A stretch of DNA of 63,293 nt, taken from assembly GCA_009929795.1 (NCBI GenBank), contig RZZR01000004.1:1-63293 (forward strand), in the 5' to 3' direction. This DNA comes from Deltaproteobacteria bacterium (lineage in GTDB: Bacteria; Desulfobacterota; Desulfovibrionia; Desulfovibrionales; Desulfomicrobiaceae). The notes beneath the pieces were generated by a model. It saw only the letters and a program-made list of their open reading frames with translations. It did not search any database and was not told the DNA's origin. Position numbers and translations under genes: made by a program. Below, piece after piece: positions 57,154 to 63,293 of the stretch; position 1 is the stretch's first letter, and each line of letters starts with the position of its first letter.

Positions 57154-57819
57154 TCAATTCAGCTCGAACTTGATTGGCAGCCGAACCCAGGCCCGGACCG
57201 CTTCACCTCGGTACCGTCCGGGGCTGAATCGCCACTGGGAAACGGCCTCCACGGCACTTCGGTCGAAGATGCCCGGAGGCGTGGATGACTCGATGCTGAC
57301 ATCAGATACCAGCCCCTCGACTCCGACCAGAAAACGAAGCTCCACCCGCCCACTCAGCCCTCGCGATCGGGCCAGATAGGGGTATTGTGGTGGAATTTGA
57401 CGGATGGGCACGGGCGGAAAGTCCAGTTCTGCGGCCTCGAATTCCAGTTCTCCGGGCAGGCTCAGGCTGGCGATCATGTCCAGGCCCAGAGAGGGCTCGA
57501 TATCCAGGCTCCTAAGCATTCCGCTCGAGGCCTGCCCGAGGCCGGGAAGAACCAGGGCCTCGGCCTCGAAGAAAATCTTGGGCGAGGAAATGTTAGGGGC
57601 CTGGACGGCGTACCGCTCATCCTCGTCCTTTGGCCTCGTTGCTTCGGGGATCAGTCGCCGTTCCGGGGGGATGTCGAATGACAAGGCCACGCCCGGCGAA
57701 CGCTCCTCATCCTCATGCTGAGGGGCCTCGATGGCCAGAAGGGGCAGCCCTAGGAGCAAAACCACGGTGGTGGCCAGAGCCAGGACCAAGGCCATAGCCC
57801 AGACCGCAGTCCGTTTCAT
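57154..57819 (-). CDS. tonB: TonB energy-transducing protein
   Basis: The 221-aa protein has one N-terminal membrane anchor (VWAMALVLALATTVVLLLGLP), a periplasmic linker of about 110 residues lacking the usual long Pro-Lys/Pro-Glu run, and a C-terminal TonB domain (IRQIPPQYPYLARSRGLSGRVELRFLV, then VEAVSQWRFSPGRY). The RYPYxA-type and WRF motifs are diagnostic. It transmits proton-motive force to outer-membrane receptors. ATG 57819 overlaps the exbD stop by four bases. Confidence 0.94.
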   Translation of the reverse strand: MKRTAVWAMALVLALATTVVLLLGLPLLAIEAPQHEDEERSPGVALSFDIPPERRLIPEATRPKDEDERYAVQAPNISSPKIFFEAEALVLPGLGQASSGMLRSLDIEPSLGLDMIASLSLPGELEFEAAELDFPPVPIRQIPPQYPYLARSRGLSGRVELRFLVGVEGLVSDVSIESSTPPGIFDRSAVEAVSQWRFSPGRYRGEAVRAWVRLPIKFELN

Positions 57820-58229
57820 TCGGGCCGTCGCGAGGCCAGGCTGATGTTCCGGGCTCCGGCCAGACGGCATTGATCGATGGCCTCGACCACCGACTGGGTC
57901 CGGCTGTCCTTGTCTGCGACCACCAGAACGGCCCCATCAGGGGACTCGGCCAGAAAGGTGGCCACATGCCCCCGCACCGAACGGGAATCGATGACCTGCC
58001 CCTCGACATAGATCAGGCCCTGAGCATCTATGCCGATCTGCAGCGTGGATCGCTGCTCGAACTCGGCCGTCTCGGCCCCGGGCCGCTGGACGTCGATCCC
58101 GGCCTCTTTCACGAACGACGTGGTGACGATGAAAAAGATGAGCAGGATGAAGATCATGTCGATGAGCGGGGCCATGTTGATGTCCACGGCCCGGCCCCGG
58201 GTCCTGTAATTTGAACGGTAACAGCTCAT
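57816..58229 (-). CDS. exbD: ExbD/TolR family biopolymer transport protein
   Basis: The 137-aa protein has a short cytoplasmic N terminus (RGRAVDINMAPLIDMIFILLIFFIV), one membrane helix with the essential Asp in PLIDMIF, and a periplasmic domain ending in VVEAIDQCRLAGARNISLAS. It partners ExbB in using the proton gradient for TonB. The start ATG 58229 has a GGGAG site. No exbB lies next to it, so its partner must be encoded elsewhere. Confidence 0.93.
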   Translation of the reverse strand: MSCYRSNYRTRGRAVDINMAPLIDMIFILLIFFIVTTSFVKEAGIDVQRPGAETAEFEQRSTLQIGIDAQGLIYVEGQVIDSRSVRGHVATFLAESPDGAVLVVADKDSRTQSVVEAIDQCRLAGARNISLASRRPE

Positions 58230-58246
58230 GCATCTCCCTGCCAAGC

Positions 58247-59377
58247 TCAGTTTCGGCGTAAATCGATTTTCTCGAACGGCAGGCCGTCGAACTGGTCTTT
58301 CAAAGCCTTAAACGATGGACCACCGTTCAGGAATATCGACAGTTCATCAGCCTTTTTATCCGGATCGACGTCCTCGAAATGTTCAGGATATAAAACCTTG
58401 CCCACGTAATACGAGTTGGCGATAATGGATTCGAAGTTCTGATTGTAGGAATTGTAGGGCAGCAGGAAATACACCTTGGCGCTTCGGACTGCGGACAAGG
58501 CGACGTAGGCCGGGTCGCGCTCGAGTTGTCCCAGGGCGCTGGCCTCCTCTCCGAGGCGCACCGTGGAGACATCCAGAAAGATGAACTCCGGGTCCTCCAT
58601 GATAATCTTCTCCTTGGAGATGTTGGTGTGCGACAAGGGTTTTTCCCCAGGCGCCTGGGCGGCGATGTTCCGGGCATGGGTGAACGTAAACGGAGCAAAG
58701 GACGGTTCCGTGGACTGGAAGCCGTGCGGTCCGCTCTGTCCGAGGCCACCGATGTAGCATGTCGGTCGGTGATCCTCGGGGATGTCTTTGGTCCGCCTGT
58801 CGAGGTCTTCGATCCATCCGCTCAAGGCGGCGACGACATCTTCAGCCCGAGCCTCCCGGCCCATGACTTCGCCCATCAACCGAATGGATCGGTTTAGGGC
58901 CTCCCGGCCCCAGGTCAGATTGCCATAGTCCAGGACCACGACCGGGATGCCGGTCTTTTCCTGAAGCTTGTCGGGATCAACCCCCCGATCGGCAAAGGTT
59001 TTGAAGATGACCTGGGGCCGTTTTTCCAGGGCAACGATGAGCTCCGGATTGTCATGACCTCGAAACTCTCCGAACATGGGATAAGTCTTGAACTGAGGGT
59101 TGGCGATGGCATACGGCCGGGCGTCAATGCGCGACCCCCGGACCTCAATGCTGTCCACGGCCACGATGCGGTCGTGGGCCTGGACATAGGTCAAAAGGCG
59201 CAGACACCCTGCCCCCGAGCAAATGACCCGGGTCACCTCGTCGGGGATGGTCACCACTCGGCCGGCCATATCGGTTATCGCGCGTTCGGCCATGACCCGA
59301 CCCGAAATCGTGACCAGAAGGGCACACGCCAGAAGGAAAACCCCCGGCCATCGGAATCTCTCTTGTATCCGCTTCAT
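58247..59377 (-). CDS. Periplasmic metal-chelate binding protein (FepB/BtuF type), no permease nearby
   Basis: The 376-aa product has a signal peptide ending near GRVMA and a helical-backbone type III binding fold: AITDMAGRVVTIPDEVTRVIC, later RPQVIFKTFADRGVDPDKLQEKTGIPVVVLD and VYFLLPYNSYNQNFESIIANSYYVGKVLYP. This fold binds siderophores, heme, cobalamin or other metal complexes. The permease and ATPase genes usually found with it are absent here. It sits between a DUF4198 gene (4 bases) and exbD (17 bases). ATG 59377 is preferred to an earlier in-frame start. Confidence 0.9.
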   Translation of the reverse strand: MKRIQERFRWPGVFLLACALLVTISGRVMAERAITDMAGRVVTIPDEVTRVICSGAGCLRLLTYVQAHDRIVAVDSIEVRGSRIDARPYAIANPQFKTYPMFGEFRGHDNPELIVALEKRPQVIFKTFADRGVDPDKLQEKTGIPVVVLDYGNLTWGREALNRSIRLMGEVMGREARAEDVVAALSGWIEDLDRRTKDIPEDHRPTCYIGGLGQSGPHGFQSTEPSFAPFTFTHARNIAAQAPGEKPLSHTNISKEKIIMEDPEFIFLDVSTVRLGEEASALGQLERDPAYVALSAVRSAKVYFLLPYNSYNQNFESIIANSYYVGKVLYPEHFEDVDPDKKADELSIFLNGGPSFKALKDQFDGLPFEKIDLRRN

Positions 59378-59381
59378 GGTT

Positions 59382-60098
59382 TCATCGCCCCTTTTCATTA
59401 AAAAACACCAGAAACGACATGTACTGCCGGTACGAATTTTCTCCATCCGTCTTGTCGGTATGCCTCACGATGAGGATGTGCTGGCGACGATCCTCCATCT
59501 CGTATTCGAAAATCCCATTTTCGTCTGTCGAGAAATAGCTGCCCTTGCCGAGCATAATCTCGGCCGAGGCCAGGGGATGGCCGTCGAAAATCACCTGGAA
59601 CCTGGACTTGGCATCATGGACTAAGCCCTCGGGGCCTGACAAAGGGATAATCTCCAATGGCAGACCTATTGGTCGAAACCACATTTCTCCCGCTTCGAAA
59701 AAACATTTGGTGTATTGCGTCGAGTTGAATGAGGAAAGGACCGCCATTCCCTGATCCAGGGCCTCCTGCCGGGATATGAGTTTCTTCCCTTCCGGGGTGT
59801 TGACGCGTTCACCCCATTCGGCGACCGCTGTCATCAGGGCCGGCGGCGCCAATGGAAAGACGGTCACACCCCGATCATCATTCCCTCGGTTGCATTGAAT
59901 GACTGTCCCGTCGGGCCCAAAGGCCTGCACGGCCACAATGCGGCCTGAGTCGTAAGGCTCTTGTTTGCCAGGAAAAATGCCGCGACAGATCCGGTACCCT
60001 CCCCCTTCCGAATCGAGCCACAAATGATGGGCTTGAACCGATGTCGCGAATAGAGATAAAAACCCGATGAAAAGAACCACTCTCGTGTATGTGCTCAT
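59382..60098 (-). CDS. DUF4198 family periplasmic protein
   Basis: The 238-aa protein has a signal peptide (cleavage near SVQA) followed by HHLWLDSEGG, the His-rich mature start typical of DUF4198, and an Ig-like C-terminal region (DGHPLASAEIMLGKGSYFSTDENGIFEYEM). DUF4198 proteins are often found with nickel, cobalt or other metal uptake systems, and the N-terminal histidine would be free to bind metal after cleavage. It lies between the TonB receptor (18 bases) and the binding protein, supporting a role in metal acquisition; the metal is not known. Confidence 0.85.
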   Translation of the reverse strand: MSTYTRVVLFIGFLSLFATSVQAHHLWLDSEGGGYRICRGIFPGKQEPYDSGRIVAVQAFGPDGTVIQCNRGNDDRGVTVFPLAPPALMTAVAEWGERVNTPEGKKLISRQEALDQGMAVLSSFNSTQYTKCFFEAGEMWFRPIGLPLEIIPLSGPEGLVHDAKSRFQVIFDGHPLASAEIMLGKGSYFSTDENGIFEYEMEDRRQHILIVRHTDKTDGENSYRQYMSFLVFFNEKGR

Positions 60099-60116: not shown

Positions 60117-62183
60117 TTAAAACTCGAAGATCAGGCCACAGGTGAACGTCGCTCCCGGAGCAATTGTGTCTCCGGCCGACGGGGAGAGAAAGATCGGATA
60201 GCGGTAATCGAAAATGTTTTCGGCATTGAAATAGATCGTGAAGTTATCGGTCAACCTTCTCGAAATCGAAGAGTCCAGGGTCCAGTAGTCGTCATTCTTC
60301 AATGTGTTTTCGTTGTCGAAATAGATGTCGGCATAATAGTTGGCGTACATCGACAGATTGAACCATTTCGGATTCTTGTAGTGAAATCCGGCATGGGCGT
60401 TATGCCTCGGGTCGTTGGGAAGGGTGTTCCCTTCGATGGAGGAATTGTTCTTGTCCTTAGCCACTCTGGAAACATTATAGGTATAGTTGGCGAACAATGT
60501 CAGGAAGTTGGTTGCGTACCATTGCAATTCGGATTCGATGCCGTAGATGTCGACCTTGCTGATATTGTCGAGCTTGTATTCGTACCGGGTCTTGCCACCT
60601 CCAAAGCTCCCGGTCCCAGTCAACCGATCGCCGATATAGTCGCGGGCAAATGACTGGTAAAAAGTCACCCGCCCCCACAATTGATCGGTCAGGAAACGCT
60701 CGGCACCGACGTCGTAAGACCATATCTGTTCCGGATCGAGATCGGGATTTGCCTCCCGGTAATAGGTTCCGCCGCCGCGGACATGGACTTTGTACAATTC
60801 GAACAGGCTCGGAGCCCTGAAGCCCTTGCCTCCCGAGGCCCGCAGGGTCGTTCTGTCGTCCGGATGCCAGGCGACTCCGAGCTTGGGCGAAAAACTGCCT
60901 TCGGTCTTGGTGTCGTAGGAATTGTCGTACGGCTTCTTGCCGGCGCTGGCGGCCGTGTCCCAGTTGGCCCCATTGGAGGTCTGAATCCAATCGTACCGGG
61001 CCCCGACGTTGAAGATTAACTGTTCGTCCAAAAATTTCAGATCGAGGTTGGCAAAAGGAGACACGAAACGCTGGGTTCCCTTGCCCCCGGCGTCACGGGA
61101 GCTTCCGTGGTAGTCCTCGTCGTACTTCCAGACGGCTTCCTTGTAGGATGCACCGATGGTCAATAGGGCCGGATCCAGATTCAGCAGAGTCCCCTGCAAA
61201 TCACCGCCCCAGGTGTAGGTCCCTTTGAACTTCTCATCCCGAAACGCTGATGAATAATTGTCGTTGGCCGAATCCTGATAGGCCGTCTTGTCAGCACGGT
61301 TGAGGTAGAGCAGGGCTTTCAGGCCGAAGGCATCGGTGGCGTGCGAGAAGTTGGCCCAGTATTGGTCGAGCTGGCAATCGTTGTGAAAATATTCCCGGCC
61401 CTGGCCCATGTCGTGATCGTAATACAGGGCCGCGAAGGAGAGGTTCGAAGCCGGGGTGAAATCATACGTGGCCTTGACCAGCCCCTGCCAGACCTTTCTG
61501 TACCGCTTGATGTTGTAGCTTGCCGGGTCTTCCTGCAAGTAGAAGCCATTGCTCTTGGCATACCCACCGGCGGCCATGGCCCCAAAATCCCCGAACTTCT
61601 GGCTGTAAAAGCCATGGGCGTCATAGGTCTCGGCCGTTCCAGCCGCGCCGCGGACCAGGGTCTGCCGCTCCTCGCTCGGCTTCTTGGTGATGATGTGTAT
61701 GACCCCGCCCAGACCTTCCGACCCGTAGAGAGCTGATGCCGGTCCCCGGACGATTTCGATGCGCTCGATGACATGCTTGGGAATATGGCCCCAGGCTACC
61801 CAGGCAATGGCATTGTTGAAATTGTCATTCTGGGGTACCCCGTCTACCAGTATCAGGAGCCGGTTGTTGCCCACTCCCCTCAGCTTCATCGGGCTGTAAA
61901 TGCCATTGGTCTGCAGAGCATAATGCCGGAAATTGTACATGCCAGGCACACTGCGCAGGATGTCCTCCACCCGGTCGAACGGGGAGGCCATCAATTGTTC
62001 ACTGGTCAGGACGGTCACGCTCTGAGGAGCGTCAATCGCCGGCATCTCGGTCCGGGTGGCGGATACCACCATGGTGTCCAGCCGATACGCCTCTTTGGTT
62101 TCCTCCTGTGCCCCTGCAATCAGCGGATATATCAGCACCGCCAGTCCCAGTCCAATCATTGCCATCCATCGAATAGCTTTCAT
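60117..62183 (-). CDS. TonB-dependent outer-membrane receptor
   Basis: The 688-aa protein has a signal peptide (cleavage near IAGAQE), a TonB box (DTMVVSA), a plug domain of about 120 residues (VEDILRSVPGM, MKLRGVGNNRLLILVDGVP, IERIEIVRGPASALYGSEGLGGVI) and a 22-strand-type barrel ending GLIFEF. The plug resembles the CirA/BtuB group, which handles catecholate siderophores, heme or cobalamin; the ligand cannot be decided here. It heads the locus and has a long leader with hairpins. An AAGGAG site precedes the ATG. Confidence 0.95.
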   Translation of the reverse strand: MKAIRWMAMIGLGLAVLIYPLIAGAQEETKEAYRLDTMVVSATRTEMPAIDAPQSVTVLTSEQLMASPFDRVEDILRSVPGMYNFRHYALQTNGIYSPMKLRGVGNNRLLILVDGVPQNDNFNNAIAWVAWGHIPKHVIERIEIVRGPASALYGSEGLGGVIHIITKKPSEERQTLVRGAAGTAETYDAHGFYSQKFGDFGAMAAGGYAKSNGFYLQEDPASYNIKRYRKVWQGLVKATYDFTPASNLSFAALYYDHDMGQGREYFHNDCQLDQYWANFSHATDAFGLKALLYLNRADKTAYQDSANDNYSSAFRDEKFKGTYTWGGDLQGTLLNLDPALLTIGASYKEAVWKYDEDYHGSSRDAGGKGTQRFVSPFANLDLKFLDEQLIFNVGARYDWIQTSNGANWDTAASAGKKPYDNSYDTKTEGSFSPKLGVAWHPDDRTTLRASGGKGFRAPSLFELYKVHVRGGGTYYREANPDLDPEQIWSYDVGAERFLTDQLWGRVTFYQSFARDYIGDRLTGTGSFGGGKTRYEYKLDNISKVDIYGIESELQWYATNFLTLFANYTYNVSRVAKDKNNSSIEGNTLPNDPRHNAHAGFHYKNPKWFNLSMYANYYADIYFDNENTLKNDDYWTLDSSISRRLTDNFTIYFNAENIFDYRYPIFLSPSAGDTIAPGATFTCGLIFEF

Positions 62184-62250
62184 CGTATCTTCTCCTTTTC
62201 CGAATCATTCATAGAAATAGTAAAAATGGTCATGAAATTCAGTTGCCCAT

Positions 62251-62312
62251 AAAAAAAAAGGCCACAAAGATCTCTCCCCGTTTTCGGGGAGCATGACCTT
62301 CGTGGCCTTTTT
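62251..62312 (-). terminator. Long terminator-like hairpin in the receptor leader
   Basis: The outer stem GGCCAC/GTGGCC encloses a perfect inner stem CTCCCCG/CGGGGAG. On the minus strand nine Ts follow, 68 bases before the receptor ATG at 62183. On the plus strand five Ts follow, so it can work both ways. Lying between the promoter-like TTGACA and the gene, it could act as an attenuator. Confidence 0.8.
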
Positions 62313-62326
62313 CCGTCTGTTATTAT

Positions 62327-62349
62327 GCCGGCCTCTGGCCGGCTTTTTT
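62327..62349 (+). terminator. Second GC hairpin with U-run on the plus strand
   Basis: GCCGGCC and GGCCGGC with a 3-base loop are followed by TTTTTT on the plus strand, a perfect small terminator shape. No plus-strand gene ends here, so it may mark an antisense transcript end or simply be a second leader hairpin on the minus strand. Confidence 0.6.
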
Positions 62350-62432
62350 AAAACAAAGGTGTGATTCCACCCATTCTTTTTCAGCTTCTGCAGGCAGTTT
62401 CAGCTGCCGATTGACTGAGGACGCTCTTACCA

Positions 62433-62454
62433 CCTTGAAAAGTGGGTGTCAAGG
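62433..62454. promoter_or_regulatory. Possible operator with -35 box
   Basis: An inverted repeat CCTTGA-N10-TCAAGG contains a minus-strand TTGACA (62447-62452). The -10 region 17 bases on (TAAGAG) is weak. The arrangement suits a promoter-overlapping operator for a metal-responsive regulator, but the motif does not match a consensus I can name. Confidence 0.4.
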
Positions 62455-62644
62455 TATGTGGATACTAATTTCTGATTTTTTTACAAAAACTGTGGAAGGG
62501 AAAAACTATCCTTTGATTTTCATGAATGATACCCGGGGTCGCGTGCTCCGGGTGTGAACTTTCCGGCGTTGAGTGATCTGAACTTTTATTTGCCGGTATT
62601 AAACGGAAAATTCATTTTTTCGAAATTGAGGGTGATTTTTCGTT

Positions 62645-62791
62645 TCATTTGACAGCATCCACCGCGAAGGAGAATGAATTTGTCTGATCGATGATTTGGA
62701 ATTGCTCAGCCCGATAAAATAGCGGCAGCAAATATGATCTCGCTGCCTTGCTGACGGACCCTGGTTTGTAATCAATGTATACCCAGTCCAC
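62645..62791 (-). CDS. Possible 48-aa small ORF, unknown
   Basis: From GTG 62791 the reverse strand reads MDWVYIDYKPGSVSKAARSY and continues without stops for 48 codons, ending AVDAVK. The composition is protein-like and differs from random readings in this AT-rich stretch. Its start lies inside the 27-bp palindrome, and no ribosome site or relatives are evident. It may be a truncated gene fragment rather than a real small protein. Confidence 0.25.
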   Translation of the reverse strand: MDWVYIDYKPGSVSKAARSYLLPLFYRAEQFQIIDQTNSFSFAVDAVK

Positions 62792-62837
62792 CCGTTAAAA
62801 TCAAATCCATTTTGATTTTAACGGGTGGACTGGGTAT
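62779..62837. repeat. 27-bp perfect inverted repeat
   Basis: Arms at 62779-62805 and 62811-62837 are exact complements over 27 bases, separated by only 5 bases (TCCAT). A stem this long is rare by chance. It has no U-run directly after either arm. It sits at the transition into the terminal lysine-rich gene and could be the scar or end of a mobile element, or a very stable RNA hairpin. Confidence 0.9.
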
Positions 62838-62883
62838 GATGTCGCCCTGAACGACAAGCCGGAAGAGGGATGATATTTGTGGT

Positions 62884-63293
62884 ATGGCCAAAGTCAGAAA
62901 GAAAAAAAGCAAGCAGAAACAGTGCCTCAGAAATGAAAAACAAAGAAAGCTGCAGTCCCTGACTCCGGATGCGATCCGCGATCAGGCAAAGGCCTTTTTG
63001 GCGGCATCCCGTTACCGGGACGCGATACTGGCCTTTCGCGAGGTGCTGAAAAAAGGGGGTGACAAGTATCTTGTCTTGCCGGACCTTTTCCGGGCCTACC
63101 GGCTCAGACACGGCCAGCTTCTTGCCAAAAAAATGACCAAAGAGGCTGAAACCGTGGCAAATCTGGGCAGGCAGGTGTTTGAAGCCCTGCCCCGGATCAC
63201 GCAGGAACTGCTGGAACAGGCCCTGGATTTCCTGCCGGTCCGAACCATCATGGCTGCATTGAAGGAAAAGTCGGCATTTGCGGTGTTGACCCC
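62884..63293 (+). CDS. Unknown protein, N-terminal part (cut off by window edge)
   Basis: At least 136 residues are visible, still open at the window end. The first 25 are extremely basic (MAKVRKKKSKQKQ and on), suggesting nucleic-acid contact, and are followed by a TPR-like helical pair (DAIRDQAKAFLAASRYRDAILAFREVLKKGG) and further amphipathic helices. Codon use, with many AAA codons, differs from the GC-rich neighbours, which suggests later acquisition. The start is ATG 62884 with only a distant GAGG upstream. The family is unknown to me; a large helical-repeat protein is likely. Confidence 0.75.
   Translation, partial: MAKVRKKKSKQKQCLRNEKQRKLQSLTPDAIRDQAKAFLAASRYRDAILAFREVLKKGGDKYLVLPDLFRAYRLRHGQLLAKKMTKEAETVANLGRQVFEALPRITQELLEQALDFLPVRTIMAALKEKSAFAVLT

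Follow-up and report, generated by a model that had tools for sequence, protein, structure and literature searches.

A conserved leader element upstream of a TonB receptor operon and other metal-uptake-type genes of Desulfobacterota is a likely nickel-responsive transcription attenuator

In anaerobes, nickel is a limiting resource for hydrogenases and CO dehydrogenase, and control of its uptake in the absence of the repressor NikR is an open question. According to a 2009 survey, NikR is present in less than half of the organisms with NikABCDE, and NikR-independent control has been inferred (PMC2667541). The operator consensus of NikR is GTGTTAC-N13/14-GTAACAC (PMC545781). Among RNA elements, the NiCo (czcD) riboswitch is a four-way junction that turns on efflux genes, and the cobalamin riboswitch (RF00174) precedes genes for TonB receptors and CbiM, frequently with a terminator at its end. 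In the dual-hairpin architecture of the leaders read by ANTAR proteins, the second hairpin overlaps the terminator (PMC3369931). The nickel-binding protein CooT is so far known only as an accessory protein of CO dehydrogenase; its dimer binds one nickel via Cys2 with a Kd of 9 nM, its function is unclear, and the word "RNA" does not occur in the text of the paper (PMC6006190). The orthologous group of CooT is called predicted RNA-binding protein, and a structure of CooT is available (PDB 6fan).

The window analysed here is a stretch of 63,293 nt (contig RZZR01000004.1) from a Deltaproteobacteria bacterium of the Desulfomicrobiaceae. On its minus strand, a structured leader precedes an operon for a TonB-dependent receptor (first gene, 60117-62183; Pfam Plug 3.6e-24, TonB_dep_Rec_b-barrel 2.8e-50), a DUF4198 protein (59382-60098; PF10670, 2.8e-19), a periplasmic binding protein (Peripla_BP_2, 58247-59446; PF01497, 4.9e-11), ExbD (57816-58244; PF02472, 4.8e-29) and TonB (57154-57870; PF03544, 3.5e-21), followed by TPR genes. 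We consider it likely that this leader is an attenuator of nickel (possibly nickel/cobalt) acquisition, read either by the RNA itself or by a protein; there are no expression, binding or probing data.

The leader carries a promoter-like sequence, a TTGACA hexamer (-35, 62447-62452) 17 nt before TAAGAG (-10, 62424-62429), with the terminator hairpin downstream. The -10 hexamer is preceded by TGG and is weak, matching the consensus at three of six positions. In the RNA, the first hairpin is P1 (GGCAG-CUGAAA-CUGCC, 62393-62408), identified by alignment with GGCAGC-UGAA-GCUGUC of the orthologous Desulfotignum leader (L037). Two hairpins of unknown role follow, a small one seen in sequence and fold (GGUG-GAAUCA-CACC, 62358-62371) and a stable one (GCCGGCC-AGA-GGCCGGC, 62327-62343) that has counterparts in L037 and in a second close leader, L020, and is followed by a T run on the plus strand. 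The intrinsic terminator, supported by the fold and by outer-stem pair counts, consists of a hairpin of 13+7 bp (62260-62307) and nine U (62251-62259). Its 5' arm contains P2 (GGCC-ACGAA-GGUC, 62295-62307), the proposed antiterminator, and its apical hairpin P3 (CUCCCCG-AAAA-CGGGGAG, 62274-62291), derived from the fold, fits both states. From the last U to the receptor ATG (62181-62183) there are 67 nt, with a ribosome-binding site (AAGGAG) at 62192-62197.

The 277-nt leader folds with -98.3 kcal/mol; its shuffles averaged -67.6 (sd 4.54, z -6.8), and none of 200 folded as well. The sequence-only reading had described a structured leader with several hairpins and a terminator upstream of the receptor, and this held, as did its nine Us, which it had placed 68 bases before the start codon. 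Its long, GC-rich hairpin held in part, since G+C richness is confined to the lower stem and the apical hairpin. Its statement that no known riboswitch consensus is present held for the window, in which no Rfam 15 family matched at the gathering score. A cobalamin riboswitch was therefore rejected as the identity of the leader, in the absence of an RF00174 match. All matches in a sub-threshold Rfam search of 62100-62900 were far below the gathering score; those on the leader (weak sRNA models) and on a perfect 27-bp inverted repeat (miRNA models, which gave the best scores) were judged to be due to chance. The latter repeat, with a 5-nt spacer (62779-62837), is situated between the leader promoter and a divergent ORF at 62884.

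The possibility that the hairpin merely terminates transcription of a neighbouring unit, in one or both directions, or that the promoter region is a DNA operator, appears very remote. In favour of a terminator, the hairpin also scores on the plus strand (34.5 bits, compared to 66.1); this is countered by the strand bias, the long U tract on one side only, the single copy in the genome and the strand specificity of P1. The sequence-only reading had named a transcription start between 62183 and 62251 as a refutation, and a scan of this interval found no promoter-like site on the minus strand. In favour of an operator, the TTGACA-bearing inverted repeat that it had noted is real in the window (7-bp arms, 62432-62438 and 62449-62455) and overlaps the -35 hexamer. 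However, the repeat is not conserved: it is absent from the Desulfotignum leader, which keeps TTGACA-17-TAAGA (TAAGAC aligns with the -10 hexamer). A copy of the NikR operator was not seen in the window's promoter, judged by eye only.

Of 101 genomes searched, only 3 gave a match to the receptor, the own genome included, and the operon therefore looks horizontally transferred. The ExbD and TonB genes overlap (57154-58244), and an ExbB gene was not seen beside them in the ORF list of the window. A second receptor copy, 71% identical and cut by the contig end, is present in the own genome (contig C46:2-493; L015, L016), near an ExbB-type gene and another TonB receptor gene; a search for the element at this copy found none.

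Orthologous receptors were collected by protein-similarity search of genome contigs, which gave 22 loci; most of these come from Desulfobacterota MAGs and two isolates. The element stands directly upstream of the receptor in 15 of them (L018, L020-L025, L027, L029-L032, L035, L037, L039), and in L034 it precedes a different TonB receptor at that locus. No element was found in L019, L026, L028, L033, L036 and L038; three of these bear the title Bacteroidales or Prolixibacteraceae, and a fourth Chitinispirillum. A further receptor orthologue (62%; L017, G022:C16), with FmdE-like genes in its operon as judged from sequence, has no match to our covariance model R1 upstream. The closest leaders, L037 and L020, share a mean column identity of 73% with the window, and the aligned parts comprise the promoter and P1 (both in L037), the GCCGGC hairpin and the terminator. 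In the alignment of 15 rows, the 5' arm of the terminator is invariant at GCCA.GA.GG and the opposite arm is looser. The near-invariant 5' arm, GGCC-ACGAA-GGYC, can fold on its own into P2, and this excludes the terminator. In the outer terminator stem, 96.7% of the cells are paired and two pairs are changed on both sides; in P2, 96.7% are also paired, one pair (G-C/A-U) is changed on both sides, and 3 of 500 shuffles reached as high a covariation score. As the sequences are few and the rows related, these values are supportive but not proof.

Because a terminator within the leader is kept across orthologues and before a related set of genes, together with a conserved and mutually exclusive hairpin, it is very likely that the element is a transcription attenuator, as inferred from sequence alone and without expression data. 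The regulated read-through proposed in the sequence-only reading is thus well supported; its other suggestion, an unknown riboswitch with direct RNA sensing, is neither shown nor excluded.

Model R1 found one copy in the own genome. Of 150 genomes in a search of relatives, a single other one (G106) had a strong match, situated before a CbiM gene. A search of a phylum sample, run with strict filters, was positive in 92 of 395 genomes (E <= 1e-4) and in 64 of 246 genera, with up to five matches per genome. Desulfoferrobacter suflitae DRH4 and Desulfacinum infernum DSM 9756 are examples of isolates that carry elements. The covariance search and leader alignment that the sequence-only reading had proposed as checks thus located the element in the phylum as well as at orthologous receptors. 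Comparison of the leader DNA with 61 genomes gave only short matches to common terminators and was uninformative.

The downstream gene was defined as the longest ORF on the strand within 600 nt, which gave 73 references from 78 instances; 66 ORFs were scanned, and those left out were small, overlapping or repeated. The families found were Plug (21), CbiM (8), DUF4198 (6), FecCD (5), OprB (5), DUF3842 (4), Phenol_MetA_deg (4), TP_methylase (2) and Peripla_BP_2 (2), with single matches to ExbB, SBP_bac_5, CODH, TrmO and FmdE. None of 18 control ORFs behind weak matches in the own order belonged to the element-associated families. The best matches of the solute-binding protein behind the element are the models of Opp4A and of the nickel protein NikA, neither of which reached its cut-off, and the CODH piece corresponds to the catalytic subunit of nickel CO dehydrogenase. 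OprB-type porins behind the element (L088, L110, L127 and others) suggest a porin route for nickel. Genes for DUF3842 stand directly behind the element in L082 (2054-2537), L094 (765-1264), L098 and L124, and several adjoin CooT or CbiM genes; this protein of unknown function is tied to nickel uptake by its position. DUF3842 was also considered as the regulator and rejected: it accounts for 4 of the 66 downstream ORFs, yet no copy turned up in the own genome (in a search without a positive control). The element, without a match among the Rfam 15 families in the scan of the window, is likely an on/off switch of an unlisted family that occurs in many bacteria of the sulfate-reducer type.

For a closer view of the hairpins, the loci of 70 matches were taken, 30 from the own-genome, relatives and phylum searches, and 40 fetched. 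Of 118 match rows, 77 were kept (the best strand per place and second sites); those dropped were opposite-strand echoes and the second occurrence of L084, in L118. With L034 there were 78 instances, and addition of 13 seed or orthologue leaders gave 91, or 90 after removal of one duplicate. As the set includes model-found sequences, conservation of the core is partly due to selection, less so in the 16 leaders of the orthologue line. The 13-nt P2 core is present in all 90 leaders, with the loops ACGAA (74), AUGAA (12), AAGAA (2) and others (2), so that 88 of 90 have an A-N-G-A-A pentaloop. The outermost P2 pair is G-C in 47 and A-U in 20 leaders. A P3 loop of GAA type occurs in only 31 of 90.

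P1 is not part of the covariance model. Defined as a stem of at least 4 bp with a loop ending in GAA, within 130 nt upstream of the element, it is present in 59 of 88 leaders, compared to a mean of 11.5 in 20 shuffles (range 6-19). Controls gave 11/88 on the reverse strand of the leaders, 18/89 in downstream stretches and 2/21 at weak-match terminators. For stems of at least 5 bp, GAA ranks first among 64 loop endings (48; next AAG with 22; median 2). The P1 stems vary freely (CGGC/GCCG, GAUUAC/GUAAUC, GGGG/CCCC and others) and the loop is constant, mostly AGAA, UGAA or AUGAA, with AUUGAA in 4 of 59; the spacing between P1 and P2 is highly variable, about 33-120 nt. The strict definition fails in 29 of 88 leaders. 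The window is among them, because its closing C.A pair is mismatched; the counterpart in L037 is intact. Upstream, 68 of 87 leaders had TTGAC within 220 nt of the element, compared to 11-20 in shuffles, and 39 had a promoter with at least 10 of 12 matches, compared to 2.4 in shuffles. This enrichment, again a matter of inference from sequence, makes it likely that the leaders are transcribed from their own promoters.

In the proposed mechanism, RNA polymerase would start at the TTGACA promoter and make P1 and then P2. Next would come the terminator, with the whole of P2 inside its 5' arm, unless something holds P2. P2 has only 4 bp and a predicted energy of -3.1 kcal/mol, compared to -35.3 kcal/mol for the terminator, and alone is presumably too weak against it, from which we infer that a factor must hold P1 and P2 for read-through. 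Such a factor should act when nickel is low. The most plausible reader would be a protein on both NGAA loops, in the way ANTAR dimers read two hexaloops. As the two hairpins share one loop motif and the antiterminator is weak, we lean towards a protein reader over direct sensing by the RNA, without being able to decide the matter.

An alternative that we rank as somewhat less likely is a direct metal riboswitch, in which Ni2+ (or Co2+) would bind to the P1/P2 RNA without help from a protein and shift the balance between P2 and terminator. A self-contained switch would work after transfer of an operon, and the copy in the window is conserved in a genome without detectable CooT, as are those in G106, G287 and G331. 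Against it, P2 is short and weak, no conserved junction or bulky aptamer core was seen, the spacing of P1 and P2 is very variable, and two stems with a common loop look like protein sites. Antitermination by an ANTAR protein bound to P1 and P2 is very unlikely. The own genome encodes one GAF-ANTAR protein, and ANTAR proteins are more frequent in element genomes (51/92) than in others (114/303, p 0.004), but there is no match in 41 of the 92, among them most members of family f12 and each of the five listed genomes of f56. The ANTAR loop rule, a hexaloop with A at position 1 and G at position 4, is not met by the pentaloop of P2 or by most loops of P1. Finally, the prematurely terminated leader (about 170 nt) could be a small regulatory RNA with constitutive termination. 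The strong terminator, own promoter and conserved loops would fit, but we consider this unlikely: the element stands before uptake-type genes with its arm conserved, G193 and G437 each have two copies in one gene cluster, and the mutual exclusivity of P2 and terminator would remain unexplained.

Returning to attenuation in response to nickel, the signal is suggested by the company that the element keeps. NikR (PF08753) is encoded in 183 of 395 genomes, in 5 of 92 with the element and 178 of 303 without it (p 5e-22). Since the element precedes genes of metal-uptake type and is found almost only in genomes without NikR, nickel or nickel/cobalt is the likely signal, still without expression, binding or probing data. 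Cobalt is not excluded, and CbiM, TonB receptors and TP_methylase could fit it as well. So could the locus L106 (1763-2065; G280:C23), where a single TonB-type gene is preceded by the element in tandem with a cobalamin riboswitch (RF00174, 96 bits), possibly for dual control. RF00174 matches were found at 3 of 60 scanned loci, and none overlaps the element.

CooT (PF10133) shows the opposite distribution to NikR, with 89 of 92 element genomes and 141 of 303 others (p 3e-21). The element is present in 85 of 144 genomes with CooT only, 4 of 86 with both CooT and NikR, 1 of 97 with NikR only and 2 of 68 with neither. These tests make no correction for kinship (the element occurs in 32 families and NikR in 58, with both in 8), and the genome sets for the ANTAR, NikR and CooT comparisons were compiled by hand. 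A CooT gene and an element are no more than 3 kb apart in at least 24 pairs, from at least 21 genomes, and in G193 and G437 CooT genes lie between two elements. As a nickel-binding dimer whose genes adjoin elements, CooT is the lead candidate for the reader in the phylum, although in the absence of binding data we would not yet bet on it. A bolder reading, which we hold to be tentative, makes CooT a nickel-sensing, RNA-binding antiterminator: the apo dimer would hold both NGAA hairpins, and nickel loading would release CooT and lead to termination.

The main result against this reading is the absence of CooT from the window's genome, where neither profile nor tblastn detected it; the genome is rated 96.4% complete, and the control G378 was found. 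The profile also missed CooT in the element genomes G287 and G331, and tblastn was negative in G106, G287 and G331. The own genome (G000) has NikR despite carrying the element. Its copy may be served by another factor, may be a self-sensing RNA, or may have lost control.

A search of the open-licence PMC literature, judged by title and start of abstract, found no paper describing the element. For roughly one in four of the phylum genomes sampled, it is a testable candidate for NikR-less control. It also names a regulon, with porins and two kinds of protein of unknown role (DUF3842 and DUF4198) among its members, and hints at what CooT may do. If the CooT reading is true, NikR would be replaced at the RNA level across much of the phylum, and the copy in the window would be a transferred one, served by another factor or out of control.

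Compared with the known systems, the element shares with NikR the presumed task, as NikR controls nickel uptake genes in the Desulfobacterota (PMC545781); in contrast to the element, NikR is a DNA-binding repressor, and its gene is seldom present in a genome that has the element. The cobalamin riboswitch resembles the element in its position before TonB receptors and CbiM and in its frequent terminator. The NiCo riboswitch is likewise an RNA element tied to nickel/cobalt, without an Rfam match in the window, but it precedes efflux genes, whereas the element precedes uptake-type genes. The targets of ANTAR proteins (eut, nas and ami leaders) differ in their A1/G4 hexaloops, compared to (A)NGAA in the element, which moreover precedes metal-uptake genes. 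In architecture, they are alike: both are leaders of a regulon with two small hairpins that share a common loop motif, here P1 (59/88 leaders) and P2 (90/90), and in both the second hairpin, which in the element lies within the 5' arm of the terminator, excludes the terminator.
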